The notes under the pieces were generated by a model. That model worked only from the letters and a program-made list of their open reading frames with translations. It was not told the DNA's origin and did no database searches. The translations under genes and the position numbers were made by a program. From an uncultured Eubacteriales bacterium (GTDB lineage Bacteria > Bacillota > Clostridia > Christensenellales > CAG-917), in assembly GCA_900322215.1 (NCBI GenBank), contig ONYW01000023.1:1-41570 (forward strand): DNA of 41,570 bases. Reading direction: 5' to 3'. Shown here piece after piece: positions 19,632 through 37,072 of this stretch. Numbering within the stretch: the first letter of the stretch is position 1; each line of letters starts with the position of its first letter.

Positions 19632-22600
19632 ATGACAAATATAAGATCCAAACGATTTGTCGCAGTTTTTGCAACTATTCTTTGCGTCGTGCTTGTCGCG
19701 ACCTTTGCTCTTACTCTCACGGACGGCGTATCCGTTGCGGAGAGCGAAAGCCTTGTAGCGGACAGTTCGCTCGTCATAGGGCACGTGAGCGATATTCACT
19801 ACTTCCCGCTTGAATACTGCTATAGAAACGTAGACGCTCCCGACTATGAGGAGAGCGACTTTTTCTATTCTCTCACAGGCGATACGAAACTCGTTTTGGA
19901 GAGCGGAATGGCACTCAACAAGGCGATACACGAGATTATTGAGGACGCAAGAGCCGGCAAGGCACCGCACTACCTTATAGCCTCGGGCGACCTCTCCAAA
20001 AACGGCGAGAGAGTGTCTCTTATAGACCTTGCAAACGCACTCCGCTACCTGCAAAACAGGGTGCGTGCGGTGTCGGGATATGAGGATTTCCAAGTGTTCG
20101 CCACGACAGGCAACCACGACCTGTACAACCCGGACGGCGCGATATACTCGCAGGAAGACGGAAAATCGATGCTCACCGACGTCGTCTCCGCGATGCAATT
20201 CGCTTTGATATTTGCAGGCCTCGGATATCCGGACGCAAACCTTACCGGCGCGGATGGAGCCATCAAATTGACGGATTATGTAAAAGACGAAACCTATTGG
20301 TATTCCTCGTTCACGAGCGGTTATCAAGCGTCGACCAACAGCACGTCGGTTGAAATTCACTATTATTCAGACAAACTCGAAGAAATCGCACACACGGCGG
20401 ACGCAAGCGAGCGTCTTGCCAAATACTACACGCTCGGCGACGAAATCAACGTCCTTTCATTCTCTGCGGAAGTTTTGACGGAAGCAAACAAGGGTTACTC
20501 CTTCCTCGTCATCGATTCAAGCGACAGAACCGTTGAAGAAGTTGGAACGATTGTCGCGCTCGGCGAAAAAGAATACACGTCCGAAAGCTTCTCGGCAAGC
20601 AATTACGTCTATCTTGAAAATGCGGACGGTTCAATCAACACTTCAAGAAAACTCACCAAAGCCTCCGACAACGAAGAAATCAGCAATGCATTCGACACAA
20701 ACAAACACGTTTACAGAGCGACCTACTACGAACATATCACAGGCGGACGCGTGACAACTGACTGTCTCGACTGGATGCAGGCATACTCGGAGACGCAAAA
20801 GGGCGACAAGACCACGCTTGGCGAGGAGACTATCGTCACCGTATTCCATCAAAACGCCCTACCGCACTGGGAGCAAGAGGACGAAATCCTCAAAGACTTC
20901 ACCGTCTACAACTGGGAGTACACGGCAAAGCGTTTGCTCTCTATGGGTTCGAGATACGTTCTCACAGGTCACATGCACGCCTCCGACGTCATGAGTTATA
21001 CGGACGCGGAAGGCAGGACGCTCTATGACTATGAAACGGGCTCGATGATAAGTTATGCCTCCCCGCGCAGATATATAAACCTCGAGCGCAAGAGCGCGAA
21101 CGGCAAACTTGCCGAGATCGCGACGTCGAGAGTCTATACGCTCGACAACCTCAAGGAGATCGCGTCCAAGCACATAGCAAGCGACCCGCATTGGAATCAA
21201 GAGGCATACGATTCCGCCACGACGCTTGACGAAAAACTCGCGTCCAACCCCGACTTCGAGATGTACGTGAGAAGATACGATATGCTCTCAGTCGAGTCAT
21301 ACGACGATTATACGACGATAGACATCTACTCTCGCCTGCTCGACCGTGCGCTGAATCACTTTATCAGCGAGCGCATGATAGACAACCTCAAAGGAACTCT
21401 CAAAAATATGCTTGTCGGCGACGACTCGATCTTAGCGGACATAATAAAGGGTATCAACCTCAAACCGTTCGGACCTATCATCTACAACATTGCGGACTAC
21501 CTGCTTGACGAGATCATATACGGGCTCTACGACGGCGGTTATCCGTTTGACGGAAACACTTATGCAAACGCTATCGACTATGTCGGCGCGATCGTGCAAA
21601 AGTTTGTCTCCACAGGGTTCGGCGACGAGACGCTTGCCTCGGCAATAAACCCTGCCAACAAAGGAAAGATGACGATAAAAGACATCGTCACCTGCATATC
21701 CACGGCGCACGCGCAAGGCACGGAAGTAAAACTCTGCCTGACCGACGAAGAATTGCAAGCCGAATACGCCTATATCGACGCGCACTTTGAAGATACCGAC
21801 TGCACGGGCATGACGGACGCTGACAAATTGCAAGCGTTCAAACAGCCTGTCGACAGGACTTACAGAAAGCGTATGACGGCGGCGATCAAGGACTTGCACG
21901 AGTTCACAAAGAGCGGAAAACTCGTAGAACTTTTGTTGGACAGTTTGCTGAAACCGCTATATTATGATGACAATTCGTTACTTAAAACCCTGATTTTGCA
22001 CAAATTCGACTTTTCAAAGGCGGTGGATCTGCCAAAGCGCAGCAACCCGTCCGAAGTGTATTTGACGGAGAGCGAATATGAAAAATTCGAGGCGCTTTGC
22101 ACTCTCCTCAACACGCTCGCGCCGTCCATCATCAACCAAATGTTCGGCACTGCGATACCGACAGGTCAAGATTTCATTCAAGCGGACAACATCGTGCTTG
22201 ACACTCTCATCACGACTCTTATGCCCGCACTAAAGCAAATAGCGGCAAGCCTCATCGGATTCAACATCACGGGCGACACCTTCACCGAGGCGGTAGATAC
22301 CGCGCTTGACGGCTATTTGACCGAAAGTTTCTACGTCGGTCTCGGCGGTATTGCGGACGCTATCATCGTGGCGTACGCAACTGACGTCTACCCTGACGTC
22401 ACGGATATGACGGACATCTCCCTGCCGTTTGTCGCACAGCCTTTCAAAGACTTCAAATATGCGGGCGAGCAAGTGACCTACGTGTCATCAAAAGTCTCCG
22501 ACCTCTATTCGAGCGTACAGTCTTCCGTCAACCCTGCGACGCAGGCAAACGGCAGAGTTCCGTCGCACGTCACGAGCGCGTTTGACACAAACGAACCGAC

Positions 22601-24128
22601 TTCTTCCTACACTGTCAAATTCTACACAGCGGAAGATGTGTTTGCCACCTTCAAACTTCAAACGCCGGACGGCACGTGGCACAGCGTGGAAACGGAGCAA
22701 GAGTATATGCTCGGCGACGAGTGCGTGACGCATGCGGAATTCGGCGGCATCGAAGTCGAGATGACAACGCGCACGAAACCGCAATATATTCCTCTCATCG
22801 ACCTCGGACTCGCCTGCCTCACGCACGGCGAAGTGGACTATGAGGACGAGGACGGAAACGACGTGCCGTATATCTTCCCCGAGCGCGACGCCGCACCGAA
22901 GGCGAGCATAATCTATTGGAACGAAACGACGGTCAAAATCAAGGGGCTTTCGGCGGACACGACCTACCTCTACGACCTCGTAGGCAACTACAAAACAGCC
23001 GCAGGCACGACCCTCGACTTCTCCCTCAAAGAGTATTCAAAAGCCAACGAGGGCTTTACTCTCCGCACCGCAAAGGGCAAGGAACAAACTTCGTTCGAGT
23101 TTCTCGCTATCGCGGACATTCAAGGCATGATAAGCGGAATGTACACGGACAGTTTCAAGGCGGTTGAAGCACTCATGCGCGACGAGCGTACGAAGAATTT
23201 CGACTTTGTCATCAACGCGGGCGATATGGTGGACAACGGCAAAAACTTTGCTCAATGGGGCTATGCGCTCGACACCTACCAGCCGCTCTTTGCCAACTAC
23301 TCGCAGATCTTCTGCGCGGGCAACCACGAGGGCAACACATACGGCATGACAAACTTCTTCAACTACGCCACGCCGACCGACGAGGGCGGCAATTCGCTAA
23401 TCCACGACGTGCTCGGCGGTGTGTACTTCTCGTTCGACTATGCAAACGCGCACTTCGTCGTGCTCAACACGAACGACGCGGACACAAAAGGTCTTGGCGA
23501 AACGCAACTCGAATGGCTGAAAAATGACCTATCCTCCACCACACAAAAGTGGAAGTTCGTCCTCATGCACAAGAGCATTTTCAGCGGCGGTTCGCACTCG
23601 TATGACGGCGAAGTCGTGGCAATGCGCGAGCAACTCGTTCCGCTCTTTGCGGAGAACGGCGTAAACATCGTCTTTGGCGGTCACGACCACACCTACACGT
23701 CCACCCTCCTCATCGACAAGGACGGACATACGACGGACAAATCCGACCTCAAAGGCTTGCAATATACGGGAGACGGTGTGCTGTATATCACCCTCGGCAC
23801 GATGGGAACAAAATATTATGAATACGGCACGAACGACGCAGTCACCCCTCGCCTCGACGAGGACAAGAGCATTCTCCACACTCTCGACAGTCAAACGTTT
23901 GGCAAAGTCAAGGTGGACGGCGACAAGATAGAGTTTGCGTCCTACTACTACGACCGCACGACGGACAGCATAAAAGTCGTCGGCGAGTCCGCGCTTGTGG
24001 ACCACCCTGTTCTTGACCGCACGATAGCCATCACCCTCATCGTCGTCATCCCGACAGTCGTCGTTGTCGCAGGCGTTGCGATAGCGCTTGTGATTCTCAA
24101 AACGCGCGGCATCCTCGGCAAAAAATAA
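19632..24128 (+). CDS. Giant surface-anchored protein with two metallophosphoesterase domains
   Basis: The protein has 1498 residues. A signal peptide (residues 1-37) follows ATG 19632, itself behind AGGGGGA. Phosphoesterase domain 1 (about 50-480) has all metal motifs: DIH, SGDLSKNGE, GNHD near 158, FHQN and GHMH near 444. A long, mainly helical segment (about 490-960) resembles nothing I know. A purple-acid-phosphatase-like fibronectin fold (about 975-1150) precedes domain 2 (about 1155-1400) with IADIQ, NAGDMVDNG, CAGNHEG, MHKS and GGHDH. A C-terminal membrane helix (about 1465-1490) with a basic tail anchors it. Both sites look active, so phosphomonoester or phosphodiester hydrolysis outside the cell is expected; the substrate (nucleotides, teichoic or lipid phosphates) is unknown. 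Confidence 0.9.
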   Translation: MTNIRSKRFVAVFATILCVVLVATFALTLTDGVSVAESESLVADSSLVIGHVSDIHYFPLEYCYRNVDAPDYEESDFFYSLTGDTKLVLESGMALNKAIHEIIEDARAGKAPHYLIASGDLSKNGERVSLIDLANALRYLQNRVRAVSGYEDFQVFATTGNHDLYNPDGAIYSQEDGKSMLTDVVSAMQFALIFAGLGYPDANLTGADGAIKLTDYVKDETYWYSSFTSGYQASTNSTSVEIHYYSDKLEEIAHTADASERLAKYYTLGDEINVLSFSAEVLTEANKGYSFLVIDSSDRTVEEVGTIVALGEKEYTSESFSASNYVYLENADGSINTSRKLTKASDNEEISNAFDTNKHVYRATYYEHITGGRVTTDCLDWMQAYSETQKGDKTTLGEETIVTVFHQNALPHWEQEDEILKDFTVYNWEYTAKRLLSMGSRYVLTGHMHASDVMSYTDAEGRTLYDYETGSMISYASPRRYINLERKSANGKLAEIATSRVYTLDNLKEIASKHIASDPHWNQEAYDSATTLDEKLASNPDFEMYVRRYDMLSVESYDDYTTIDIYSRLLDRALNHFISERMIDNLKGTLKNMLVGDDSILADIIKGINLKPFGPIIYNIADYLLDEIIYGLYDGGYPFDGNTYANAIDYVGAIVQKFVSTGFGDETLASAINPANKGKMTIKDIVTCISTAHAQGTEVKLCLTDEELQAEYAYIDAHFEDTDCTGMTDADKLQAFKQPVDRTYRKRMTAAIKDLHEFTKSGKLVELLLDSLLKPLYYDDNSLLKTLILHKFDFSKAVDLPKRSNPSEVYLTESEYEKFEALCTLLNTLAPSIINQMFGTAIPTGQDFIQADNIVLDTLITTLMPALKQIAASLIGFNITGDTFTEAVDTALDGYLTESFYVGLGGIADAIIVAYATDVYPDVTDMTDISLPFVAQPFKDFKYAGEQVTYVSSKVSDLYSSVQSSVNPATQANGRVPSHVTSAFDTNEPTSSYTVKFYTAEDVFATFKLQTPDGTWHSVETEQEYMLGDECVTHAEFGGIEVEMTTRTKPQYIPLIDLGLACLTHGEVDYEDEDGNDVPYIFPERDAAPKASIIYWNETTVKIKGLSADTTYLYDLVGNYKTAAGTTLDFSLKEYSKANEGFTLRTAKGKEQTSFEFLAIADIQGMISGMYTDSFKAVEALMRDERTKNFDFVINAGDMVDNGKNFAQWGYALDTYQPLFANYSQIFCAGNHEGNTYGMTNFFNYATPTDEGGNSLIHDVLGGVYFSFDYANAHFVVLNTNDADTKGLGETQLEWLKNDLSSTTQKWKFVLMHKSIFSGGSHSYDGEVVAMREQLVPLFAENGVNIVFGGHDHTYTSTLLIDKDGHTTDKSDLKGLQYTGDGVLYITLGTMGTKYYEYGTNDAVTPRLDEDKSILHTLDSQTFGKVKVDGDKIEFASYYYDRTTDSIKVVGESALVDHPVLDRTIAITLIVVIPTVVVVAGVAIALVILKTRGILGKK

Positions 24129-24132
24129 GAAC

Positions 24133-24143
24133 ATTGCGATTTG
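24133..24143 (+). repeat. Candidate left attachment repeat of the island
   Basis: ATTGCGATTTG occurs here, five bases after the phosphoesterase stop codon, and again in direct orientation at 34780-34790 beyond the recombinase gene. It is the best flanking direct repeat I could find; 11 bases is suggestive only. Confidence 0.3.
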
Positions 24144-24163
24144 ACTCAAAGCACCCCGCTTGA

Positions 24164-24216
24164 GGTGTATTTCGTAGGGAATTAAAGAACAACAATTTTT
24201 TGATACGAAATACACC
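24164..24216. repeat. 13-base inverted repeat at island edge
   Basis: GGTGTATTTCGTA (24164-24176) and TACGAAATACACC (24204-24216) are perfect complements with a 27-base loop. It may be a terminator stem without a T tract or a protein-binding site at the island end. Confidence 0.5.
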
Positions 24217-24229
24217 AACGGGACGTCGT

Positions 24230-24260
24230 AAAAAAGACTTGATGTTTTCAAGTCTTTTTT
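24230..24260. terminator. Bidirectional terminator
   Basis: AAAAAAGACTTGA (24230-24242) pairs perfectly with TCAAGTCTTTTTT (24248-24260) around TGTTT. It has T runs on both strands and separates the phosphoesterase gene from the convergent defence operon. Confidence 0.85.
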
Positions 24261-24276
24261 AATACTCTCTTTTCAT

Positions 24277-25188
24277 CTATTTATTTTGTTTTAATTGATT
24301 TAATTCCTTAGACAATTTATCCAGCATTTCATTGGCATCTAGTATTGTTTTGATGACAATCATATTGGAAAGTGCGCAAAACAATTGAAGGCAATCTTTT
24401 TGACTAATTTCTCTTGTAAAAAGTCCGTGCATAATTCTATTTCTATTGATAATCTCGGGTTCGTTTGTTCTATCAAGAGAAACGCTGAAATAGTGATTTT
24501 TCGCTAAATCATTAAACTGTCTTACTATGTTAATGTAATATTCAATTCTAATGCTATACACTTGGTTTACATTCTTGATTTTTTCTTTTACAACATCAAG
24601 GTTATCTTTAATCCTATAAAAACTGTCTTCATTGAAGTTTGTAATGTATTGATGGTAGGACTCAATTATAGGAAAAAGAGAAACAACACAAGAATAATAG
24701 CATTGGTTCTTATAGTTTATAATCGCTTGCTTGAAGTATCTATCAATCCTTGAATTAGGTTCACCGATTGAAAAGTTAAACAGATCATCAAACATACGAT
24801 CGAAGTTCCTAATATACAATTCCTCGGTTGTAACATTCACGTTGCCGGAAGTCGTAATTCGACTATTAATAAACGCTTGCGGAAACATCCAACCTTGCCT
24901 TCTCATTTCTTCCTTTTGATAATCAGGAAAACTTGGCATTTCTGATACTAAAGCATCGTCAAAGTATTTCTTCAGTACAAGCCAATAATAAAAATGCACG
25001 TTACTCAAATAGTTTCTCTTGGCTGTTATGTATTCACATCGGAATTCATCTTGACTTTGATTATAGTCTCGTTCTATTTGGGCTAACACCTCTTTGTCCG
25101 CCGTAAGCTTTTTTTCTAGAGCTATTATATTTTCTACTTCACCTGCCACATATACAGGTTTCATTTTGTAAATAGTGATTTCTCTCAT
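24277..25188 (-). CDS. HEPN-motif protein, putative RNase partner of the defence operon
   Basis: This 303-residue, mostly helical protein starts with a charged coiled region (residues 15-60, VENIIALEKKLTADKEVLAQIERDY). Near residue 246 it has R-N-R-I-M-H-G, a perfect R-[N]-x3-H motif of the HEPN ribonuclease superfamily in the NRNxIxHG setting common at the C-terminus of abortive-infection proteins. No other domain is recognised. It is the last gene of a four-gene unit, 15 bases after the ATPase stop, with no clear SD site, so it may depend on translation of the gene before it. An RNase or toxin role is inferred from motif and position; it could also be a sensor domain without catalysis. Confidence 0.7.
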   Translation of the reverse strand: MREITIYKMKPVYVAGEVENIIALEKKLTADKEVLAQIERDYNQSQDEFRCEYITAKRNYLSNVHFYYWLVLKKYFDDALVSEMPSFPDYQKEEMRRQGWMFPQAFINSRITTSGNVNVTTEELYIRNFDRMFDDLFNFSIGEPNSRIDRYFKQAIINYKNQCYYSCVVSLFPIIESYHQYITNFNEDSFYRIKDNLDVVKEKIKNVNQVYSIRIEYYINIVRQFNDLAKNHYFSVSLDRTNEPEIINRNRIMHGLFTREISQKDCLQLFCALSNMIVIKTILDANEMLDKLSKELNQLKQNK

Positions 25189-25203
25189 GTTAATACTAAA
25201 AAA

Positions 25204-27363
25204 TTATATAATTCCCATCATCATATTGTAGTGCTCAATTTGATGTGTTTTTTCAAAAATCTTTTTAAAGATATCTTTATAATTCTCAACCATATCCTTG
25301 TCAATGCTTAAATGAAAATCATCATTAATCGTATGCGAGCCTGTATTAATATAAGGCAATAGCGTTTTACAAATAAGTTTGTCTTGCCCTTCAAATTCAT
25401 CTATTAGTTTAGAGTAATCCTTGTGGCCAATAATGTTAAAATAGTGTTCTAATATCCTTCTCATTGTATTGCATATTAGAGAACTATCTGTTGTTGGATC
25501 TTTGTATTCTTGCCAAAGTAATTCATACGAAGATTTAATTTGGTTTTCATCATATCCAGTTATGGTGGTTATTTCGTTACTTTTTCTTAATACCCAAAAA
25601 TGTTCTTTAGTCTTGCAAATATTATTGCGTCTGTCTTTAAAGCAGACTTCTTGATGAAAATATATGTTATGCGTTAGAATAAAAATCTGTTCGATATTAG
25701 AACCATTCAAACATTTTGCAATCAGATCTCTAACAAGGTAACTAACAATGAATAAAATATTGCTGTCTAAACTTGAAATAGGATCGTCTATAATAAGAAT
25801 CTTATTCTTTACAGATGAATCTTTATCTAACGAACCTTTTACAAGTTGGTAAAAGTATAAAAAAGTAATGAATCTATGTTCTCCTTCGCTTAACGTTTCC
25901 TTAACTTCACTTCCATCTGCACGAATTAGTCTGTATGAAACATCGTCCTTTTTTTCTATTTTAAAACCGTTGAAGCCGAATCCTTTTAACAAATTATTGA
26001 TTTCATCTATAGCATTATCAATGCTAACGATATTTGCTCTTTTATCAACAATTTCTGAAATGCAGGCATTTTTTTCATCCTCTTTGAGTTTTTTATATCC
26101 AAGCAAATTAAGCATACCTTTATTTTTACCATCTAAAGACTTTTTGTAATCTTTTATGACCGTTGCAAGCTGATTGTTTGCGATATAATCCCAAAGTGTA
26201 GTAGAAAAATCTTTTCGTGCCTTGGTTATGTTCTTTGCCAATGTATTATTATCATTAATTTGTTTGTTAAAAGCATTGATTTCCGTACTAATGATGTTGA
26301 TAATAAGTGTTGTATCCTCTAAAACACATGGTGTTGCAGGGTTTTGTAACTTATTTGTTATTGACGAAAGATTCTTGTTAATGGTTTCCAATAAATCATT
26401 TTTATGACTGAAAAGATTAATTCCATTAATAAAGGGGATATCATTTAACACATTTTGCAAATTATCAAAGAACTCAATCGTATCGTTTTTCCTCTGCTCA
26501 TAATTGCTATTTAATTGTTTTAACAATTCAATTGATTGAGTATATGTTTCATTAAAAATGTTATTCAATTCCTCAATGGTTGGCGCAGGAATCTTTTGTT
26601 GACAAAATGGACAAACTTTGTCATCCGATAAATAATTAATCCCTTGACTAACCCAATTGATGTTCCCAAGTTTCTCAATAAATTTGGAGAAAATGGAATC
26701 AGAACTATTCACGATTCTTTCTGATAGAATAGGATCTGTTTCTAATTCTTTAAAATTAATACAAAAATTCGCTATTTCTGCGTACTCTATAACTTCTTTT
26801 TGAAATAATTGGTTATATGTAGTTTTCAGCTCATCAAGCGTGGTATTGCATTGATTTCCATTATAGGAATCCTTACATTTCTGCGCAAATACCTTCATGG
26901 AACCCCTATAACCTTTTAGTGCTTCGGGGAATACAGATCCAACCTGTTTTTCAACATTCCAACAATTTTGTTCATATTCAAACAATAAGTTATTTATCTC
27001 TATTTGAAGGGCGTCAATTGAATTTTGGTATTTTAGAATATCATTTTCCATCTCATGTTTTTCTTTTTCTTTTTCTTCAATAAAAGTTAGGGCTTCAACA
27101 GCAGATTCGCCTATTGTAAATATCCCTTGGATTGCATTTTTATCCCGAAAATTCGATTCAACAAAAGATTTATTATAAACTAATACTTCGCTATCGGAAT
27201 CGTTAACTAAACATCCATTGGTAAGATTATTTTTGTCGTCTAGAAAACTGGAAATAGTTGTTTTCCCGGAACCGTTGCCGCCAAAGATATAGTTAATTTG
27301 GTATGGTTCAAACTCCATACTTTTGATGGTGGCCTTATTGGCTATTTTTATTGTTTTTATCAT
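25204..27363 (-). CDS. RloC/PrrC-like AAA_13 ATPase with zinc hook, putative anticodon nuclease
   Basis: The protein has 719 residues. Walker A GGNGSGKTT (about 28-36) is followed by VYNKSFVESNFRDKNAIQGIFTIGE, typical of the AAA_13 family. Long coiled coils flank a zinc-hook-like CPFCQQ near residue 252, as in RloC and Rad50-type proteins. The ABC-type signature precedes Walker B ILIIDDPISSLDSN (about 521) and the H-loop ILTHN (about 561). The C-terminal part has R-x3-E in RRILE (about 636) and, 38 residues after the Glu, GSH, resembling the R-x3-E...H triad of PrrC/RloC anticodon nucleases. Known relatives cut tRNA anticodons when a linked R-M system is attacked. The start overlaps the endonuclease stop as ATGA. 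Confidence 0.8.
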   Translation of the reverse strand: MIKTIKIANKATIKSMEFEPYQINYIFGGNGSGKTTISSFLDDKNNLTNGCLVNDSDSEVLVYNKSFVESNFRDKNAIQGIFTIGESAVEALTFIEEKEKEKHEMENDILKYQNSIDALQIEINNLLFEYEQNCWNVEKQVGSVFPEALKGYRGSMKVFAQKCKDSYNGNQCNTTLDELKTTYNQLFQKEVIEYAEIANFCINFKELETDPILSERIVNSSDSIFSKFIEKLGNINWVSQGINYLSDDKVCPFCQQKIPAPTIEELNNIFNETYTQSIELLKQLNSNYEQRKNDTIEFFDNLQNVLNDIPFINGINLFSHKNDLLETINKNLSSITNKLQNPATPCVLEDTTLIINIISTEINAFNKQINDNNTLAKNITKARKDFSTTLWDYIANNQLATVIKDYKKSLDGKNKGMLNLLGYKKLKEDEKNACISEIVDKRANIVSIDNAIDEINNLLKGFGFNGFKIEKKDDVSYRLIRADGSEVKETLSEGEHRFITFLYFYQLVKGSLDKDSSVKNKILIIDDPISSLDSNILFIVSYLVRDLIAKCLNGSNIEQIFILTHNIYFHQEVCFKDRRNNICKTKEHFWVLRKSNEITTITGYDENQIKSSYELLWQEYKDPTTDSSLICNTMRRILEHYFNIIGHKDYSKLIDEFEGQDKLICKTLLPYINTGSHTINDDFHLSIDKDMVENYKDIFKKIFEKTHQIEHYNMMMGII

Positions 27364-29345
27364 TGGTCAATCCTTTTCAGTTGTTGTTTTAGTTCTTGGT
27401 CATACCACAAATTGGGTGCAACAATGGATTTAAATGCAGTTTCAAATATGCCATACAAATGCGAATATGTCAGGCGTTTTTCAATAATATTTTTAATTTC
27501 TTCAGTATTGCAAGGTATTATTTTCATTCCTTCGATACATCTTTCGCCATCATTTGAATAATAGGGGCTATTCTTGCGGCTACGGAAATCAGCGACGACA
27601 TTAACATGAAGGAAGGTGGTAGCAAATAAACAATAGGCTTCTTCGTTGTGCGACAATAGATAGTCACCCAAATGACGAGATACAGGTTCCATTTCCATAC
27701 GGCGTTGATTGGTGCTATTTGCTAAGGTCGCCTCTATTAGCAAAGTGTGCGCAGGGTAGAACTCTGTTGCTTCGTAGTGATATGTAATGTCTTCATGCCC
27801 GCCGGCGGCGTGCGTTATTGGAAGAAGATCAGCATCCAATGACAAATTCATATATTCCAATACTTTCCCTTGCCGCCTGGATACTTTATACCAAATAATA
27901 GCAAGGATGTACTCAAAAATGGTCGGGATATCTGCATTGTTGGTAACATCTGAACGAATCTCGTCATCGGCACGCTTTTCAAACTTGGTCAGTAGACTAA
28001 TTAGTACATCATCCGAGAAACGTTCATCAATCATCTTATTAAAACGTTGATAACGTTCTTGATCTACATAATTTTGAATGTCAAATAAATTACGGACTTG
28101 TACACCATACAATTCTTCTGCTTTACTGAATATCTGTGCTTGAGTAACATCAAAGACTTTGTTTATTTCGGAAAGTGAACAATTTTGGTGTAATTTGTTT
28201 GAAGACGCAAATGCGATTTCAAGCAAATCGTTTTTAATAATACTAAAATAGCAACTCGGAATAATATCGAGCTTGACTTTATTATCTTGGAATAGAACAG
28301 TATCAGTGGTCTTGAAATATCGCCGATTTAAATCAAAATAATCGTCGAGCAGGCTTTTGGCTTTGAACAAATGAAGAAGATTGAAGAATTCTTCTTTAAA
28401 TGCGACGTCATCATTTATCTCGAATATTTTGCGGTTGGTATGAACTGTTCTCACGCCGTTTTTTTGAATGCGACTCTTTGAAACGGTGTTGAACAAATAA
28501 AATTTCCAAGATAATCTTGGCTTACCCGACAGTTTATTGGCCGCATCAAATAGTTTTAATGCCGATGGGGTGTCTTGATGGGCTTTGAAAAGCAATAATG
28601 CATTATACAAGTTCAGATAGGCAATATCGTACTCTCTGCTTTTTCGATTCATGCCTATTTCCATCATTAAATATTCATCAACCGTTGGCGCACTAAGAAA
28701 CATCGCCTTAGCCTCTTGATAGTTCGGCATATCCAAGATAACGGATAGGATTGCATCATTTATTGATTCTTTCCCGGCGCGGATGTCCCGTATGTTTGCT
28801 ATTATCTGTTTCATTTTTGCCTTGTCTGTCGCGAGAGGAAGCAAATATGCAAATTCGTCTTTACTAAGCTCGCCAAACTCTGACAGCAAATAAGCAAGTA
28901 TGAGGTATGGACGAATAACAGAATCTTCAAACGGAATAGATGTTTTTAATAACTGTTTGAAGTATACAAAACTATCGGCAGGGATCTGCAAAATGTTGTT
29001 TTTGTCAAACTTCCCACATTCAGCAATAGACAATAAGGCTTGTCCGGCAGGAGTGAGACGTCTTTCATCGGTAATAAGCCCTATATCGACCAATCCGGAA
29101 GTTTTTTCACGCGCGTCCTTATCTTTTCTCGGAGCATCTTTATCCTCAATGAAACCTTTTCCCTTAATAAAATTATAGTATTGAGTTTGCAATGTGCTGT
29201 TGGAGGTCCAATTGGCGGAACCGTTTGCAGGCAACGCCCAAAACTCATTAAGGAGTTTTAATTGCTCCTCAATTTTCCTATTGAATTCTACCATTCGGAA
29301 ACTTGTCGTACCAAGTGACCAACAATAACTTTTGTACGCTGGCAT
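27360..29345 (-). CDS. AlwI-family type IIS restriction endonuclease
   Basis: The 661-residue protein opens with YCWSLGTTSFR, the W-x-LG-TT-x-R start of AlwI-like enzymes, followed by the winged-helix-like region REKTSGLVDIGLITDERRLTPAGQALL. The catalytic region near residues 520-560 reads GGHEDITYHYEATE...LLIEATLANSTNQRRMEMEPVSRHL, matching the family's P/E-D...EVTL...Q...E..PV.RH pattern, a PD-(D/E)xK variant. Relatives cut a few bases outside asymmetric sites of the GGATC/GAGTC type; the site here cannot be read. AAGGAG precedes ATG 29345, ten bases after the methyltransferase stop. The four-base ATGA overlap with the ATPase gene implies tight coupling. Confidence 0.82.
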   Translation of the reverse strand: MPAYKSYCWSLGTTSFRMVEFNRKIEEQLKLLNEFWALPANGSANWTSNSTLQTQYYNFIKGKGFIEDKDAPRKDKDAREKTSGLVDIGLITDERRLTPAGQALLSIAECGKFDKNNILQIPADSFVYFKQLLKTSIPFEDSVIRPYLILAYLLSEFGELSKDEFAYLLPLATDKAKMKQIIANIRDIRAGKESINDAILSVILDMPNYQEAKAMFLSAPTVDEYLMMEIGMNRKSREYDIAYLNLYNALLLFKAHQDTPSALKLFDAANKLSGKPRLSWKFYLFNTVSKSRIQKNGVRTVHTNRKIFEINDDVAFKEEFFNLLHLFKAKSLLDDYFDLNRRYFKTTDTVLFQDNKVKLDIIPSCYFSIIKNDLLEIAFASSNKLHQNCSLSEINKVFDVTQAQIFSKAEELYGVQVRNLFDIQNYVDQERYQRFNKMIDERFSDDVLISLLTKFEKRADDEIRSDVTNNADIPTIFEYILAIIWYKVSRRQGKVLEYMNLSLDADLLPITHAAGGHEDITYHYEATEFYPAHTLLIEATLANSTNQRRMEMEPVSRHLGDYLLSHNEEAYCLFATTFLHVNVVADFRSRKNSPYYSNDGERCIEGMKIIPCNTEEIKNIIEKRLTYSHLYGIFETAFKSIVAPNLWYDQELKQQLKRIDQ

Positions 29346-29355
29346 ATTTTTCTCC

Positions 29356-31494
29356 TTAATAATTTACAATCAACACCTCTTCTGCTTTAGAGGTTTTATC
29401 TTTGGTTTGGTAATTGGAATTTGAGTAGTTGTAATCTAAATAAATCACTCTATATTTATCTATATTACTGTTTATCCAATCAAGCAAGATCCTATTTTCT
29501 TTGCCTTTTGAATGTAAGACATTGGATAATGCAAAACGAATTCCTCTTTCATGAAGGGAGTCAAGGTATTTCAGTAACTCTTTTTCGAGATTTTCGTTCC
29601 ATCCGTCTTGCTCATTATAGGTCGCGCAAGTAATCAGATACGGAGGGTCTGCATATACAAAGGTTTTATCGTTCCAATCACAATTGGAAAGTTCTCGAAA
29701 ATCATAACTTTCAAAGGTATAATCACCGCTTTTTAATCTATCAATGAATGAAGAAAGCTTTTCCCTCATCTTTTTATTAAAATCGCGCTTTCCGGCGGGC
29801 AAATTGAATTCGCCTTTGGAATTAAAACGGATTTGATTATTAAAGGAATAAATCACCAAAACATAAAGCATTACATAATAATAGTAATCTTGGTTTGTAT
29901 GATGATTGAAATCATCGCGCAATCGTTTGAATCCTTCGGTATTGTATTTAGACAAACCGTCGGCACTGTTGCATCCATAATATTCATATCCAAAAGTATC
30001 CGAATCGGACAAATTATATTTTTTTATAATCGAATCAATCAATTCAAACGTAGATTTTTTATCGAGATTCTTAAAGGTGCCAAACATATACCTCAACAAA
30101 GAATTGTTATCATTAAAAACTACTTTGTTGCATGGAACATTAATGCCAACATTGCCGCCGCCACAGAATAAATCAATGAATAAATCGATATCCTGAGGGA
30201 AATGTGGTAGTATTTGAGGCAATAATTTGAATTTGCCTCCAGTATAGTTCAGAGGAGACTGAATCAATTCTTTTTGTTTGTAATCATAACACTCGCAGAG
30301 GAAAAGCCGCTCTTCATTCCCTGTAATATTTGACTTGCCTGCACTAAAAGCTCTATACTCTTCTGAAAAAACTTTAACACGACCTTTCCGAGAAAGGATG
30401 CGCATTATATCTTCATCTGAAATTTTGGCATTAGAGCGCCCATTGCCTTTTTCTGCCATGTTGTTGTAAGACAGTAAAATGTACTTTGCTTTTATGTGTG
30501 CAACTAAATCTTCAAATGCTTTTGCCGCACTTGATGTACAGTAATCACTTTTTAGAGAAGAACGATCCATTTTGAGGGCAACGCCCTTAACTTTCGGCTT
30601 TTCCCACTTTGCAACATTTTCAAGTAGGTGATAAGCATCGCAATACTGCCTTGAATTATAGGGTGGATCAATATAGACCAAGTCGGCTTCTATTCTGTTA
30701 ACGAGGATGTTTGCGTCTTCATTATAGCATTGATTATTCTCATTGTTGTCATTACTTGCTGTGGGGACGGCGAGTTCAAGGTGCTTTTCAAACGTGGCAC
30801 CTCTAATATATGCGTCGTAATGACCGCAAGTATTAGCAATTTTATCCATCGCATAGAGCAAGGAGGTAATAAGGATAGCGCGCTCTCTTGCATTAATGCT
30901 TTTGTCGTTGTACTTCTGCTCAATATCTTCTCGTATAAAGCCAATCTTAAGGCAATCGTCGTGAGAGAAGAATGTGTCGGAGAAGTTAAGCGACATATAG
31001 TTTTCTGTAGTGGGTTGTATTGCGTTATAATAACAAATGAGGTTTTTAATCTTTTCCTCATCATAATGTTCTGCGCCAAACCAAGCGATATGACAGATGT
31101 AGTTAAAATACAGAATGTCGTTCGTAATCAGTTTTTTGTTTGCGAAAGCGGAAGCAACCGATCCGGTACCCGCAAAAATGTCGGCGACAGTATTTACACC
31201 AACACATTCACGTTTAACTGTTGAGGTGATGAATTCAAGTAGTTTGTATTTGTTGCCTAAATATCTCCGATTGTTAATCTTTGTAGTCTTGTATTTGGGC
31301 TCATCAACTTTTTCCGGTTCAACTCTTAATTGTAAGGTCTTACGAAGATCCTCTATCGTTTCTTCGCTCCAGATATATCTACCGCTATCCGTTGTAGAAA
31401 TGCTTATTAAGTTGTTTTTAAGCAGATAATAAAAGGTCGAGCGACTAATGCTCAACTCTTTTAGTATTTCATTTGATGTTAATGCAACTGGCAT
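29356..31494 (-). CDS. Fused double-domain adenine-N6 DNA methyltransferase with N-terminal HTH
   Basis: The protein has 712 residues. Residues 1-60 form a MerR/excisionase-like helix-turn-helix (TSNEILKELSISRSTFYYLLKNNLI...RYIWSEETIEDLRK). Domain 1 has NRRYLGNKYKLLEFI (about 73), the SAM loop DIFAGTGSVASAFA and the catalytic YIDPPYNSRQY (about 275). Domain 2 has LNYTGGKFKLLPQI (about 418), FIDLFCGGGNVG and VYADPPYLIT (about 615), the D12/Dam class. Two fused adenine methylases, as in M.FokI, suit an asymmetric type IIS site, one domain per strand; they would protect against the AlwI-like enzyme next door. GGAGA precedes ATG 31494. The HTH could let the enzyme repress its own promoter. Confidence 0.88.
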   Translation of the reverse strand: MPVALTSNEILKELSISRSTFYYLLKNNLISISTTDSGRYIWSEETIEDLRKTLQLRVEPEKVDEPKYKTTKINNRRYLGNKYKLLEFITSTVKRECVGVNTVADIFAGTGSVASAFANKKLITNDILYFNYICHIAWFGAEHYDEEKIKNLICYYNAIQPTTENYMSLNFSDTFFSHDDCLKIGFIREDIEQKYNDKSINARERAILITSLLYAMDKIANTCGHYDAYIRGATFEKHLELAVPTASNDNNENNQCYNEDANILVNRIEADLVYIDPPYNSRQYCDAYHLLENVAKWEKPKVKGVALKMDRSSLKSDYCTSSAAKAFEDLVAHIKAKYILLSYNNMAEKGNGRSNAKISDEDIMRILSRKGRVKVFSEEYRAFSAGKSNITGNEERLFLCECYDYKQKELIQSPLNYTGGKFKLLPQILPHFPQDIDLFIDLFCGGGNVGINVPCNKVVFNDNNSLLRYMFGTFKNLDKKSTFELIDSIIKKYNLSDSDTFGYEYYGCNSADGLSKYNTEGFKRLRDDFNHHTNQDYYYYVMLYVLVIYSFNNQIRFNSKGEFNLPAGKRDFNKKMREKLSSFIDRLKSGDYTFESYDFRELSNCDWNDKTFVYADPPYLITCATYNEQDGWNENLEKELLKYLDSLHERGIRFALSNVLHSKGKENRILLDWINSNIDKYRVIYLDYNYSNSNYQTKDKTSKAEEVLIVNY

Positions 31495-31536
31495 AACTTA
31501 TCTCCTTATGCAACTAAAAATCGCTTCTCTTTGGAC

Positions 31537-31565
31537 ATTATACCATATATTAATACAAAATACAA
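31537..31565 (-). promoter_or_regulatory. Promoter of the defence operon
   Basis: Minus-strand -35 TTGTAT (31565-31560), 17-base spacer, perfect -10 TATAAT (31542-31537). The start would be near 31530, giving a 35-base leader to the methyltransferase. It fires away from the mobilisation module. Confidence 0.75.
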
Positions 31566-31759
31566 GATATAATGAATGCAAAAACGAGTTTTTTGGATGC
31601 ACTTCAAAAAACGCATCCATTACAAACTCGGGTTTCCCGATTGTTCGGCGCGCCGACGGCGCCGCCATACGAAATAGCGAATTTTAGCTATTTTCTTATC
31701 CTGCTCTATAAAAAGGGCGAATAGCTAAAAGATAGCCAAAAAATTTTTCAAAAAAGTGC
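31566..31759. other. Divergent spacer between defence operon and mobilisation module
   Basis: It holds several short palindromes (GGATGC...GCATCC, CGGGTTTCCCG, GGCGCGCC, AATAGC...GCTATT) and an unusually GC-rich patch at 31650-31668. No credible gene is present. Confidence 0.4.
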
Positions 31760-31787
31760 TAAGGTGTTTGCTACAACGAACACCTTA
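31760..31787. repeat. 9-base inverted repeat upstream of leader RNA promoter
   Basis: TAAGGTGTT (31760-31768) and AACACCTTA (31779-31787) are perfect complements with a 10-base centre, directly before the -35 box. It may be an operator or recombinase-related site. Confidence 0.5.
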
Positions 31788-31790
31788 ACC

Positions 31791-31819
31791 TTTACAAAGA
31801 CATTTGAAAGTGATATAAT
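31791..31819 (+). promoter_or_regulatory. Promoter of the leader RNA
   Basis: -35 TTTACA (31791-31796), 17-base spacer, perfect -10 TATAAT (31814-31819). Confidence 0.75.
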
Positions 31820-31825
31820 GTAGCT

Positions 31826-32050
31826 ACAAGCTGAATATGGGCGAAGGGGTTCCGTTGAATGCCTTTGCTGACGTTCGTTAAGCGATTATACTTGGCAGAA
31901 GCCGTATTGACTTAAACCGCATTAAAACCCAAGAGCGGGCGGAGAGAACAGTACGAAACCGCGAACCATGAGACTTCGGGCGAACAGATAGACCTTATTT
32001 TTGCGTTGCAGAAACGCACGTAAGGTTTTGTCTGTTCGCCCTTTGTTTTT
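31826..32050 (+). ncRNA. Structured leader RNA of the mobile module
   Basis: About 225 bases between a good promoter and a strong terminator contain no ribosome-site-led ORF. The 3' half forms a long hairpin: 31978-31997 (GGGCGAACAGATAGACCTTA) with 32021-32041, enclosing a smaller TGCGTT/AACGCA stem, then TTTGTTTTT. The 5' half has further complementary patches (gcgggcgg, accgcgaacc). It precedes a tiny ORF and the regulator gene, like the attenuator leaders of clostridial integrative elements. I do not recognise the RNA family. Confidence 0.6.
31978..32050 (+). terminator. Terminator/attenuator of the leader RNA
   Basis: A stem of about 20 base pairs with a small bulge, a nested inner stem, and a T-rich tail at 32042-32050. 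Confidence 0.8.
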
Positions 32051-32092
32051 AACGGACATTCGGTTTGAATAGAGTCACAAGGAGGAATACGT

Positions 32093-32122
32093 ATGAAAGC
32101 AAGAGATAGGCCAAAGATCTGA
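32093..32122 (+). CDS. Nine-codon ORF with a strong ribosome site
   Basis: AAGGAGG lies seven bases before ATG 32093, but the frame closes after MKARDRPKI. So strong a site before so short a frame suggests a regulatory leader peptide or the stump of a gene lost by deletion. No homologue can be claimed. Confidence 0.35.
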   Translation: MKARDRPKI

Positions 32123-32153
32123 CAGCCACGAGCAGAACGAGTCATTGAAAGTA

Positions 32154-32198
32154 TTGGGAATCCCTTTCAAAATGGAAGCAGGTAAAGGGATTTCCCAA
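32154..32198. repeat. Inverted repeat TTGGGAA(T)CCCTTT
   Basis: TTGGGAATCCCTTT (32154-32167) faces AAAGGGATTTCCCAA (32184-32198), complementary apart from one extra base, with a 16-base centre. It lies between the nine-codon ORF and the regulator promoter; function unknown. Confidence 0.5.
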
Positions 32199-32314
32199 AA
32201 TCAATGATTTTCGTCAATCCGACTCGTGGATAAGTGGGAAACCCACCTTCCCCTTTTTCGGCAAGTAATTGCCAAAAATTACAGGCCCATATCTTACCGC
32301 CTGAAAAATAATCG

Positions 32315-32328
32315 TCGTATATATACGA
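32315..32328. promoter_or_regulatory. Operator 1 for the RHH regulator
   Basis: A perfect 14-base palindrome TCGTAT-AT-ATACGA, ending 8 bases before the -35 box of the regulator promoter. It differs only in its two central bases from operator 2. Confidence 0.6.
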
Positions 32329-32336
32329 GAAAGAGC

Positions 32337-32365
32337 TTGACATGCCCTCGTTAATGGTGTAGTAT
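32337..32365 (+). promoter_or_regulatory. Promoter of the RHH regulator / recombinase module
   Basis: Perfect -35 TTGACA (32337-32342), 17-base spacer, -10 TAGTAT (32360-32365). It lies between the two identical-arm palindromes. Confidence 0.8.
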
Positions 32366-32373
32366 ATGCTTAG

Positions 32374-32387
32374 TCGTATCAATACGA
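32374..32387. promoter_or_regulatory. Operator 2 for the RHH regulator
   Basis: Perfect arms TCGTAT-CA-ATACGA at about the transcription start. The centre-to-centre distance from operator 1 is 59 bases, so a bound pair would bracket the promoter. Confidence 0.6.
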
Positions 32388-32417
32388 TTATGATATTCAC
32401 CTAAGGAGATGAAAGAG

Positions 32418-32708
32418 ATGACGAAACCGAGAGCGGAAAAAGATAAGAGATATGAGGATAGACACAAGGAAGAACGGAAAGCCAAGTGTATGGTTTGGGG
32501 AACGAGCGTTGACAGAAAAGAAGCAGAAGAGATAAACGACTTCCTCGAAGAGTATGGTTACACGAAAGTCCAACTGATACGGGCGGGATATAAAGCGCTA
32601 TTAGACGAGGCCGCCGAGCATGATTTGGGATTAGCAAAGATAATGGACGGATACGATGATTTCTTTGAGAGTGAACTCGAAAAGTTCAGAAAGGATCAGG
32701 ACAAATAA
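32418..32708 (+). CDS. Ribbon-helix-helix-like transcription regulator
   Basis: The 96-residue protein has a very basic start (KPRAEKDKRYEDRHKEERKAK). Then comes an RHH-like unit: strand MVWGTSVD, helix RKEAEEINDFLEEYG and helix TKVQLIRAGYKALLDEA; an acidic tail follows. This is the build of small Arc/CopG-type repressors carried by mobile elements. ATG 32418 is nine bases after AAGGAG; the ATG at 32409 touches the SD and is rejected. Twin palindromic operators surround its promoter, so autoregulation is likely. It probably also controls the recombinase downstream. Confidence 0.7.
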   Translation: MTKPRAEKDKRYEDRHKEERKAKCMVWGTSVDRKEAEEINDFLEEYGYTKVQLIRAGYKALLDEAAEHDLGLAKIMDGYDDFFESELEKFRKDQDK

Positions 32709-32858
32709 CCTCTTCGGAAGCAAAGAACAGACACTTGACTTACGTAGGGAAAAGGATTACGCGAAAGAAGCATTGGCGTAATGGAATCCCTTTGATTCCT
32801 TGTGAGAGTGAGGGCAAAAAATACATCGGATACCCTCACCGTCCAAAAGGAATGAAAC

Positions 32859-33020
32859 ATAAACAATCAATATACCTATACAACCACCTTTGGCGAAACG
32901 GAGTATATCGTTATTGTTATGGAAAGCGATACCGCCAAAGAAACCATTACAAAGAAACTCAAAAGAGTTATATCAAGCGACGTGTCGAAGAGTGTTTTTT
33001 CGGAAGGAGAAGCAGTATGA
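32859..33020 (+). pseudogene. TnpW-like small ORF lacking a canonical start codon
   Basis: This frame encodes 53 residues resembling transposon proteins of the TnpW type: NNQYTYTTTFGETEYIVIV, then SDTAKETITKKLKRVISSD. Its TGA overlaps the recombinase ATG (ATGA), the usual arrangement of such pairs. A stop codon lies two codons before, and the only plausible initiation codon is ATA at 32859, seven bases after AAAAGGA, which is where ATG would be expected. A single ATG-to-ATA change, a rare AUA start, or a +1 shift from the ATG at 32852 would explain it. Confidence 0.5.
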
Positions 33021-34666
33021 AAAGACAATCAACGACTCAACATAACAATTCCTATATGGGAGGTGATACCATAACCGCCTTGTATTGCAGGTTATCTTGC
33101 GATGATGGTGACAATCAAGGCGACAGCAACAGCATTAAAAATCAAAAAGCCATACTTGGCAAATATGCGACCGAACACGGATATAGCAACATTCAGTTCT
33201 ACGTGGACGACGGCTACTCCGGCACGAACTTCAACCGACCTGACTTTCAACGGATGATAAAAGACATCGACGCTGGCAAAGTCGCAACGGTTATCGTCAA
33301 GGATATGTCCCGTCTCGGCAGAGATTATCTCAAAGTCGGCTACTATTCCGAAATGTACTTTGGAGAAGCGGGCGTTCACTTTATTGCAATCAACGACGGC
33401 GTGGACAACCTATCCGAAAACGACAGCGACTTCACACCCTTCCGCAACATCATCAACGAGTGGTATGCAAAGGATACGAGCAAGAAAGTAAGAGCTGTGT
33501 TCAAAGCCAAAGGCAATTCGGGTAAGCATCTTTGCACTTGTCCCCCGTATGGCTACATGAAAGACAAAGAAGATAAACAAAAATGGCTTGTGGACGAGGA
33601 AGCCGCAAAGGTCGTAAAAGAGATATTCTCTCTATGTATGAAAGGATACGGTCCGACGCAAATTGCACGGATACTTACGGAACGAGGGATAGATACGCCC
33701 GTGGTGCATAATCGCAAACGCGGATTGCCGACGACAACTTATCAATCGGAGTTCCCTAATATTTGGTGTACCGAGAGCGTCATCCATATCCTTGAGAACA
33801 TGAACTATTGCGGGCATACCGTCAACTTTACGACCAAAAAGAAATCGTACAAGAGCAAGAAGAAACTCCGCTTGCCACGTGAAGATTGGCTCATATTCCG
33901 AGATACGCACGAAGCGTTGATTGATGAAGAAACATACGAAACGGTTCAGCGGATACGGCAAAGCAGACGAAAGCAAAGCGATATGGGCGAGATGAGCGTA
34001 TTTTCGGGACTTGTTTACTGTGCGGACTGTGGCAAGAAAATGTATCTCTGTCGTTGTTCGACGATGAAACAAAAAGAGTACTTTAACTGTTCCACTTACC
34101 GCAAGAAAAGTAAAAGTCTATGTACTTCTCATCAAATAACGGCGGAAGCCGTGGGGCATATCGTGCTGACCGACCTGCAAAGAGTATTGGGGCAATACCA
34201 ATCGGACGAAAAACGGTTTGTTGAGCTGTTACAAAATCAAGTGCAGAAGGAAACCCGAAAGGAACTCATGTTAAAAACGAAAGAATATGAGGACGCCGAA
34301 AAACGTATTACCGCTCTTGACCGTATCATTCAAAGTTTGTACGAAGACAAGATATGCGGCAATATCACCGCAGAACGTTTTGCAAAGATGGCGCAGTCTT
34401 ACGAAGAAGAGCAGTCCACGTTAACAGAGCAAGTCAAGGTGTTACGGGAAGAACTTGCAAAAGCAAAAGAAAACTCCGATAACATAGTCATATTAGTTCG
34501 TCTCGTAAAGAAATACACCGAGATCACCGCACTGACTCCGGAAATAGTCAGAGAGTTCATCGAAAAGATTATCGTTCATCAAGCAGAACGAGTGGACGGT
34601 AAGAAGACGCAAGCCGTCGAAATCATTTACAACGGAATAGGAGCGATTCCTACTCTTATACCGTAA
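33017..34666 (+). CDS. Large serine recombinase (TnpX-like)
   Basis: The protein has 549 residues. The N-terminal resolvase domain has ALYCRLSCDDG with the nucleophile Ser27, VDDGYSGTNFNRPDFQRMI and VIVKDMSRLGRDYL. The recombinase domain follows (PPYGYMKDKEDKQKWLVDEEAA..., GRNxxGxxxILxN-like CTESVIHILENMNYCG). A zinc ribbon (CADC...C...C, about 334-372) and a coiled coil (about 410-500) complete the large-serine-integrase plan. It excises and inserts a circular element at short cores. ATG 33017 is placed by AAGGAG 7 bases upstream; the frame is open back to 32735, but that part overlaps the TnpW-like frame. It is the probable mobiliser of the 24.1-34.8 kb island. Confidence 0.92.
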   Translation: MKRQSTTQHNNSYMGGDTITALYCRLSCDDGDNQGDSNSIKNQKAILGKYATEHGYSNIQFYVDDGYSGTNFNRPDFQRMIKDIDAGKVATVIVKDMSRLGRDYLKVGYYSEMYFGEAGVHFIAINDGVDNLSENDSDFTPFRNIINEWYAKDTSKKVRAVFKAKGNSGKHLCTCPPYGYMKDKEDKQKWLVDEEAAKVVKEIFSLCMKGYGPTQIARILTERGIDTPVVHNRKRGLPTTTYQSEFPNIWCTESVIHILENMNYCGHTVNFTTKKKSYKSKKKLRLPREDWLIFRDTHEALIDEETYETVQRIRQSRRKQSDMGEMSVFSGLVYCADCGKKMYLCRCSTMKQKEYFNCSTYRKKSKSLCTSHQITAEAVGHIVLTDLQRVLGQYQSDEKRFVELLQNQVQKETRKELMLKTKEYEDAEKRITALDRIIQSLYEDKICGNITAERFAKMAQSYEEEQSTLTEQVKVLREELAKAKENSDNIVILVRLVKKYTEITALTPEIVREFIEKIIVHQAERVDGKKTQAVEIIYNGIGAIPTLIP

Positions 34667-34681
34667 TCACCTAAAAAGGAA

Positions 34682-34713
34682 AGAGTGGCATAGCGATTAT
34701 GCTATACCACTCT
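34682..34713. repeat. Inverted repeat after the recombinase gene
   Basis: AGAGTGGcATAGC (34682-34694) and GCTATaCCACTCT (34701-34713) pair in 12 of 13 positions around a six-base loop with no T run. It could be a Rho-aided terminator or an end/recombinase site of the element. Confidence 0.5.
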
Positions 34714-34743
34714 ACCTTGAATGGATAAAATCCCTATGAACGA

Positions 34744-34770
34744 CACCCTTTCGGGGTGCTTTTTATTTTG
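34744..34770 (+). terminator. Intrinsic terminator downstream of the recombinase
   Basis: CACCC-tttcg-GGGTG followed by CTTTTTATTTT. Confidence 0.75.
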
Positions 34771-34779
34771 AAAAATAAA

Positions 34780-34790
34780 ATTGCGATTTG
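34780..34790 (+). repeat. Candidate right attachment repeat of the island
   Basis: Direct repeat ATTGCGATTTG matching 24133-24143. It lies between the element's last terminator and the next host gene. Confidence 0.3.
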
Positions 34791-34851
34791 TGGCACATCT
34801 GTTGCACTTTGTGTGATATAATATTTTCAAGAAAACAAAGGAGCGACAACT

Positions 34852-36189: not shown

Positions 36190-36200
36190 TCATCAACCGA

Positions 36201-36232
36201 AAAAGCACTCCCGAAAGAGAGTGTTTTTTTTA
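36201..36232 (+). terminator. Terminator of the 445-residue protein gene
   Basis: GCACTC pairs with GAGTGT/T around ccgaaaga with an A tract before and eight T after, 12 bases past the stop codon. Confidence 0.75.
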
Positions 36233-36267
36233 TTGCTATAATATCACTATGGTGAAAACTAAATAAG

Positions 36268-36291
36268 AAGGCGCGGACACTTCGTGTCTTT
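36268..36291. repeat. Dispersed 24-base hairpin repeat, copy 1
   Basis: AAGGCGCG followed by GACAC-ttc-GTGTC and TTT; an identical 24-base copy in the same orientation is at 37032-37055. This copy is followed by a degenerate MITE-end-like sequence (gttgaatgag...aatgaggaat). Confidence 0.7.
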
Positions 36292-36362
36292 GTTGAATGA
36301 GAAATTAGAAATGAGGAATTTCGAAAAATAAATATTTACTCCTTTCAATAAATACTTTACTA

Positions 36363-37031: not shown

Positions 37032-37055
37032 AAGGCGCGGACACTTCGTGTCTTT
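37032..37055. repeat. Dispersed 24-base hairpin repeat, copy 2
   Basis: Identical to 36268-36291, including the GACAC-ttc-GTGTC hairpin. It lies in the 315-base spacer between the zinc-ribbon gene and hydA, which otherwise holds only terminators. Confidence 0.7.
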
Positions 37056-37072
37056 ATTATTATTTTTATTGC

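Follow-up and report, generated by a model that had tools for sequence, protein, structure and literature searches.

A type IIS restriction-modification pair, an RloC-type ATPase and a HEPN-motif protein arranged as one operon in a candidate mobile insert

We analyse a 41,570-nucleotide stretch of DNA from an uncultured Eubacteriales bacterium (contig ONYW01000023.1), referred to throughout as the window, by which we mean the whole stretch and not only the four-gene operon that is our subject. The operon is real, intact and tightly arranged; its parts are known and their combination is new. Open reading frame (ORF) calls place four intact genes on the minus strand, in the order fused type IIS adenine methyltransferase (MTase), AlwI-family type IIS restriction endonuclease (REase), ATPase of the RloC kind, and a protein with a HEPN motif. 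We read these genes as a relay in which type IIS restriction would act first, RloC, reached via DNA ends, second, and the HEPN-motif protein third, and we hold this reading at about even confidence. In its favour, the domains and motifs are intact, the layout and ends of the operon are in view, and the insert that carries it has no counterpart in the same-genus genome G871. Two further points are the exchange of cargo behind the REase in related loci and the published activation of RloC by DNA breaks and linear DNA (PMC2610378, PMC3874168).

The MTase (29356..31494, minus strand; 712 aa) joins a helix-turn-helix (HTH)-like N-terminal part to two D12 domains. Pfam MethyltransfD12 matches two stretches of this one protein (E = 2e-64), as would suit an enzyme for an asymmetric site, and PADLOC MTase_II matches at 2e-258; the HTH_17 match in the N-terminal part is weak (E = 0.06), and a similar part is present in relatives. 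The REase (27360..29345, minus strand; 661 aa) scores 259 bits for Pfam RE_AlwI against a cut-off of 23 (E = 1e-76) and matches PADLOC REase_II at 6e-37, with residues 441-588 matching N.BspD6I in the Protein Data Bank (3e-9). Its closest relative, in locus L141, is 71% identical; there a 344-aa ORF (L141:1975-3012) lies between MTase and REase, where the window has only 10 bases.

The third protein (25204..27363, minus strand; 719 aa) combines an ABC ATPase, a CPFC zinc hook and a C-terminal anticodon-nuclease (HEPN) domain. It matches Pfam AAA_13 at 2e-147 and PADLOC PDC-S06 at 2e-222, and a PrrC model covers residues 454-712 (3e-16). The ATPase motifs read GGNGSGKTT (Walker A), LSEGE (signature) and DDPISSLDS (Walker B), the hook stands at residues 251-254, and the nuclease triad consists of R635, E639 and S676-H677, that is, R-x3-E-x37-H. 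RloC has been defined by an R-x3-E-x36-52-H triad, often with Ser before the His, and its lengths range from 658 to 897 aa (PMC2610378). All 11 proteins of an alignment keep the Walker A core, the signature and R635-x3-E639 (N632, R635 and E639 being invariant) and also the hook, CPFCQ, in which one member has Y for F and C251 and C254 are invariant in 11/11; H677 is present in 10 of the 11, the exception being one phage protein. Because the nuclease triad is complete and accompanied by an ABC ATPase and a hook, the protein is, judged by its sequence, a full RloC. The nuclease domains of PrrC and RloC are HEPN domains (PMC3710099), so the operon would hold two HEPN candidates, a point that goes beyond the first-pass annotation of this DNA. 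The labels given there (fused adenine MTase, AlwI-family nuclease, AAA_13 ATPase) are borne out by Pfam and PADLOC, and the zinc hook and the R-x4-H motif it saw in the third and fourth proteins are both present.

The fourth protein (24277..25188, minus strand; 303 aa) has no credible family match in Pfam (best E = 0.18), PADLOC or NCBIfam. The HEPN superfamily is marked by the motif R-x4-6-H, and residues 249-254 of this protein form R249-x4-H254, invariant in an 11-row alignment whose pattern N-R-(N/H)-x3-H-G keeps N248, R249, H254 and G255 in every row. Going by this motif, the protein is probably a second RNA cutter. Relatives are few and remote: leaving the own genome aside, 4 among 391 genomes of the class, 5 by profile among 398 genomes of the phylum, and none by tblastn in plasmids and phages. 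The member in L043, which lies among serine recombinases, is 33% identical over the full length. PHROG 30981, a group of phage proteins without assigned function, is matched by 7 of the 11 aligned members; the window protein, which has a longer N-terminal part in common with L043, has no match to it at E 0.01. RloC is absent by profile from all 12 distinct contigs that carry the family (L025-L027, L039-L041, L043-L046, L225, L228), a biased sample in that 6 of the 12 come from a viral collection. One family gene lies between terminase-like and portal-like phage genes (L045, by eye), and another directly upstream of a cytosine-MTase-like gene (L027, motif by eye), so the family may have a link with modification genes.

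The four genes follow one another with gaps of 10 bases (MTase to REase), -4 (REase to RloC) and 15 (RloC to HEPN-motif gene), and the ORF coordinates thus confirm the spacing and common strand first described for them. The start of RloC overlaps the stop of the REase by 4 bases; this overlap and the 15-base gap suggest co-expression. A TATAAT -10 element upstream (31537..31542, minus strand) is kept in relatives in an alignment of upstream regions, and the operon ends in an intrinsic terminator (24229..24261, minus strand) with a 14-bp stem and a U run at the end of its 3' arm (-16 kcal/mol, z -4.3). Given the TATAAT element and an upstream repeat that are common to relatives, and the strong terminator after the last gene, a single transcription unit with one promoter is a fair reading of the layout. 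The earlier statement that there is one promoter draws support from the conserved element and none from a generic promoter scan, whose 36 sites are hardly above the shuffle mean of 32.8.

The upstream repeat is an inverted GATGC-N12-GCATC (31596..31617, minus strand), a candidate operator that amounts to two SfaNI sites; GATGC/GCATC is the site of an SfaNI-like, AlwI-family system of Caldicellulosiruptor (PMC9799307). The single match in the window, against 0.07 expected, is not remarkable alone, as 7 of 100 shuffles also have one. Upstream of the MTase the repeat recurs with its 12-base spacer in eight relatives (L142, L143, L144, L146, L148, L152, L154, L208), and other relatives have these pentamers 5-6, 28-30 or 38 bases apart; that the pentamers persist while the spacer varies points to constraint on the repeat. 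It is found in 17 of 30 loci whose MTase has the N-terminal extension (dinucleotide-shuffle mean 0.08 of 30, shuffling leaving shared ancestry among the repeat-bearing loci in place), in 0 of 28 loci with a split MTase, and in 3 of 12 classed as lacking the extension (L148, L152 and L154, where it is present by eye). When pentamers are ranked, AT-rich ATTTT stands higher (19 of 30) and GATGC comes first among those with at least two G or C. Within the window GCATC is scarce, with 59 occurrences against 88 expected from shuffles or 86.7 from a Markov estimate. We infer that the HTH part uses the repeat as its operator, or else that the repeat is a pair of recognition sites of the system itself; its identity with SfaNI sites upstream of the promoter suggests self-regulation of the operon.

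How often does this combination of genes recur? A scan of species genomes with the REase alignment confirmed 106 relatives, the best 80 of which we use, and a viral scan added 4, giving 84 AlwI-type loci; 68 of them have room downstream (at least 1.5 kb and a further ORF). The HEPN family occurs in 0 of the 84 by phmmer and profile. RloC occurs in 0 of the 84 by phmmer with the window proteins and in one, L156, divergent and split, by two more sensitive RloC profiles (from 11 and 87 proteins). Neither gene is present in six further AlwI-type loci from 398 phylum genomes, own genome excluded (phmmer and HEPN profile), or in six same-order loci that the REase alignment picked out (these include fragments and remote matches), and the R-M (restriction-modification) pair stands without both in Priestia L024 and in G568. 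A reverse search of the best 80 of 114 viral RloC loci and 10 plasmid or phage loci finds no AlwI REase (phmmer) and no HEPN family (phmmer or profile) within their stretches. The four-gene grouping is therefore not conserved, an assembled combination rather than a conserved four-gene machine, and the idea of a recurring four-gene system is not supported. No relative with the same four genes turned up in these searches; the combination is new and its parts are known, the ATPase being of the RloC kind (PDC-S06).

In the relatives, the position behind the REase looks like a slot filled by other anti-virus genes. A same-strand gene lies within 60 bases behind the R-M block in 26 of the 68 loci with room, and upstream in 14 of 63. 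Half of the downstream genes (13 of the 26) are defence-like: AAA_21 (L141), IetS at 1e-42 with an AAA gene (L155), RloC (L156), PDC-M37B (L157), a SIR2 set (L150 and L151, the latter by collinearity and itself unscanned), GmrSD_N/NsnA (L158), GmrSD (L159), REase_II (L160), Mrr (L185), AriA/Old (L215), HamB of Hachiman at 4e-221 (L222), and AAA_5 and REase_II models (L223). For L141, L150, L157, L222 and L223 only a later cargo gene was scanned, and for L155 and L158 two genes. Six scanned loci have no clear defence label (L143, L166, L168 with HARE-HTH, L170 with an exonuclease domain and a PDC-S48 match, L177, L206), and the downstream scan left out seven (L165, L180, L182, L194, L196, L201, L217). 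The gene in L177 (12016-12885) is streptomycin adenylyltransferase-like (Pfam Adenyl_transf) and overlaps the REase end by 4 bases. The upstream scan, by PADLOC only, covered 10 of the 14 genes (all but L156, L202, L221 and L224): the near-identical units L184 and L199 match Septu, L155 has an R-M control protein, L182 matches HTH-type models, and six have no match. Defence-like genes thus stand directly downstream in 13 of 68 loci and upstream in 2 of 63, the two sides having been scanned to unequal depth and kinship being uncorrected.

Comparison of close relatives bears on how this slot is filled. L155 and L156 share 92.5% identity across 5.85 kb and diverge 28 bases before the REase stop; behind near-identical R-M units with a control protein, one has IetAS (L155:5890-9371) and the other the split RloC-like gene (L156:6123-8485). 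L142 and L143 are 94.5% identical up to the REase stop, with several kilobases upstream in common, and a 232-aa gene present in L160 is missing from L165, the sequence on either side of it being homologous. Among 17 pairs at 84% REase identity or more, some sharing members, homology ends within 100 bases of the block end in 10, with at least 300 bases present behind it in both. It runs through most or all of the available sequence, or well beyond the block, in L150/L151, L184/L199, L174/L182 and three L212-L214 pairs, and L196/L197 have too little sequence behind the block to judge. In several of the 10 pairs homology also stops soon upstream, so that these pairs point to the R-M unit having moved and not to a change of cargo. 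Since the RloC of L156 and the ATPase of L141 each span two separate ORFs, either copy may be non-functional or an assembly error. Behind REases close to that of the window lie genes of 380 aa (L142:12098-13240), 394 aa (L143:11935-13119) and 1213 aa (L144:12054-15695); the L144 gene has no Pfam or PADLOC match, that of L143 has a weak Pfam metal-domain match only, and L142 was outside the scan.

The operon lies in a candidate mobile insert (24133..34790). G+C content is about 50-54% to the left of 24 kb and drops to 30-38% at 24-32 kb. Two copies of an 11-base direct repeat, ATTGCGATTTG, are present, one at 24133 following the left host gene and one at 34780 following a large serine recombinase (32735..34666, plus strand; Pfam Resolvase, Recombinase, Zn_ribbon_recom and DUF4368). 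The recombinase is the probable vehicle of the insert; its domains begin only at residue 115, and translation may in fact start downstream of the called ORF start. Before it is a 99-aa ORF (32409..32708, plus strand) with no credible Pfam match. Our guess is that the repeat is an att site bounding an element of about 10.65 kb. Against G871, homology ends at 24069 and resumes at 36367, leaving up to 12.3 kb (about 24070-36366) without counterpart, and none of the 7 relatives searched matches the ORF right of the repeat (34852-36189), as would be expected if the insert has the larger extent. Matches to the flanks 19632-24128 and 37200-38963 are 13.1 kb apart here, 0.9 kb in G871, 0.2 kb in same-genus G801 (a short stretch with no blastn match), and 3.7 and 4.3 kb in same-family G821 and G375; in G897, G921 and G856 the best flank matches fall on different contigs. 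The same-genus genomes G801, G871, G897 and G921 have no match to the REase alignment. On the right side of the insert a near-identical 27-base repeat occurs at 36268-36294 and 37032-37058, its starts 764 bases apart.

The relay that we favour would work as follows. A serine-recombinase element would carry an SfaNI/AlwI-type IIS R-M pair and, added to the same transcription unit downstream of the REase stop, two abortive-infection genes, one for a complete RloC and one for a solo HEPN protein. As is known for the family, the fused MTase would mark both strands of the asymmetric site and the REase would cut unmarked phage DNA beside it; such site-specific type IIS cutting has been demonstrated in other organisms (PMC9799307). 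As is known for other RloCs, RloC would be kept inactive through its ATPase and zinc hook and, once activated by DNA ends, would cut tRNA anticodons and halt translation. We propose that here these ends come from cutting by the REase or from the phage. The HEPN protein, its role guessed from the motif, would be a further RNase.

Several points weigh against this relay. That type IIS cuts would suffice to trigger RloC is our extrapolation, and PMC12322248 ascribes RloC triggering to inhibition of type I R-M. We found no relative with the same four genes, so their coupling here is read from the layout. The HEPN assignment comes from a short motif: the predicted model is all helical and of low confidence (mean pLDDT 66), it has no Foldseek match at E <= 0.001 and no clear match on a second look, and Pfam HEPN matches are weak, for one relative each. 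Finally, independent action of the genes is compatible with all results.

Independent action is what one expects if the genes were stacked by accident in a defence island, the promoter being common only because cargo lands behind the REase. This would explain the variable cargo in the slot and the HEPN-family genes found without RloC, several in viral contigs. It would also explain why some RloC relatives have R-M neighbours and others do not: among the ten plasmid or phage relatives inspected (L014-L023, L016 being without annotation), L014 and L015 adjoin type I R-M, L018 adjoins a convergent PaeR7I-type R-M, L017 lies 2.8 kb from a type ISP enzyme, and the five L019-L023 have no R-M annotated in view. 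RloC in L078 has two separate D12 MTases at a distance of 5 kb, so with L018 in mind RloC near type II R-M is not unique to the window. An L032 ORF (8804-10123), within which the window ATPase finds a weak match (E = 4e-9), lies among type I R-M-like genes (labels by eye) in a PrrC-like arrangement. Accident fits less well with the signs of co-expression in the start-stop overlap and 15-base gap, with RloC standing twice behind this kind of REase (in the window and, split, in L156), and with the downstream excess of defence-like genes, bearing in mind the 4 upstream genes unscanned. We consider accidental stacking a serious contender, if somewhat improbable on this evidence.

We think it unlikely, though possible, that RloC is a guard in the style of PrrC, an explanation less well founded than the DNA-end relay. 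Here the REase/MTase complex would bind and silence RloC (and the HEPN protein) until a phage anti-restriction protein frees them. The tight operon with its 4-base overlap and the divergent RloC in the same slot of L156 are what a guard would lead one to expect; PrrC acts so with type Ic R-M and the same has been proposed for R-M-linked HEPN proteins (PMC3710099), and it is stated for RloC with type I R-M (PMC12322248). However, RloC of Acinetobacter baylyi is turned on by DNA breaks in R-M mutants too (PMC3874168), and 83 of the 84 related R-M loci have no detectable RloC, so a conserved REase surface for RloC is not to be expected. A review names PrrC and PARIS as R-M guardians and DNA breaks as the trigger of RloC (PMC12707154), at odds with the earlier description of RloC as a guard of type I R-M systems. 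Of the two-layer defence proposed with it, the layering stays plausible; the guard mechanism is made doubtful by that trigger and by the rarity of R-M linkage in published RloC (8 of 72 cases; PMC2610378).

Type II R-M pairs are addictive by themselves, which makes it improbable that RloC and the HEPN protein serve as an addiction module, triggered by host DNA cuts after R-M loss and killing cells that lost the element. The mobile insert with its recombinase and the response of RloC to DNA breaks (PMC3874168) would fit such a module.

If restriction cuts do trigger RloC, then the cutting of DNA and the arrest of translation are parts of a single relay, not a ward and its guard, and this compact operon offers a way to test what triggers RloC physiologically. 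Should the slot prove a real exchange point, R-M operons could be viewed as platforms that express second-line defences, and new defences could be sought there, for example among the unlabelled genes in L142, L143 and L144. A wider idea, speculative and in our view doubtful, is that AlwI/SfaNI-type R-M operons are a general chassis: their own recognition sites in the promoter would let methylation state set expression of the whole unit, and the slot would take a second line of interchangeable effectors (RloC, Hachiman, IetAS, SIR2, OLD) whose preferred signal is the DNA ends or damage produced by restriction. Hachiman, the cargo in L222, likewise senses DNA damage (PMC12278908).

Set beside known systems, the R-M pair resembles the SfaNI-like, AlwI-family type IIS systems (R.Cal02329, PMC9799307) in its AlwI-family REase, its MTase activity for both strands (predicted here) and its GATGC/GCATC motif, and differs by the added cargo genes, its presumed specificity being read from the promoter repeat alone. 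The ATPase shares its ABC domain, CxxC hook, triad and length range with RloC of Geobacillus kaustophilus and A. baylyi (PADLOC PDC-S06); the R-M links of published RloC are to type I or III (PMC2610378), whereas this one sits in an AlwI-type IIS operon. PrrC with EcoPrrI is likewise a tRNA-cutting protein inside an R-M transcription unit, but EcoPrrI is type Ic, whereas the R-M linked here is AlwI type IIS and the window RloC has a zinc hook. Closest in concept are the RloC-R-M-DOC neighbourhoods of Anantharaman et al. 2013 (PMC3710099), which embody the same multi-layer idea of R-M, HEPN RNase and a further toxin; in the window the R-M is of AlwI type and the third layer would be a second HEPN-motif protein, from an unnamed family, instead of DOC.

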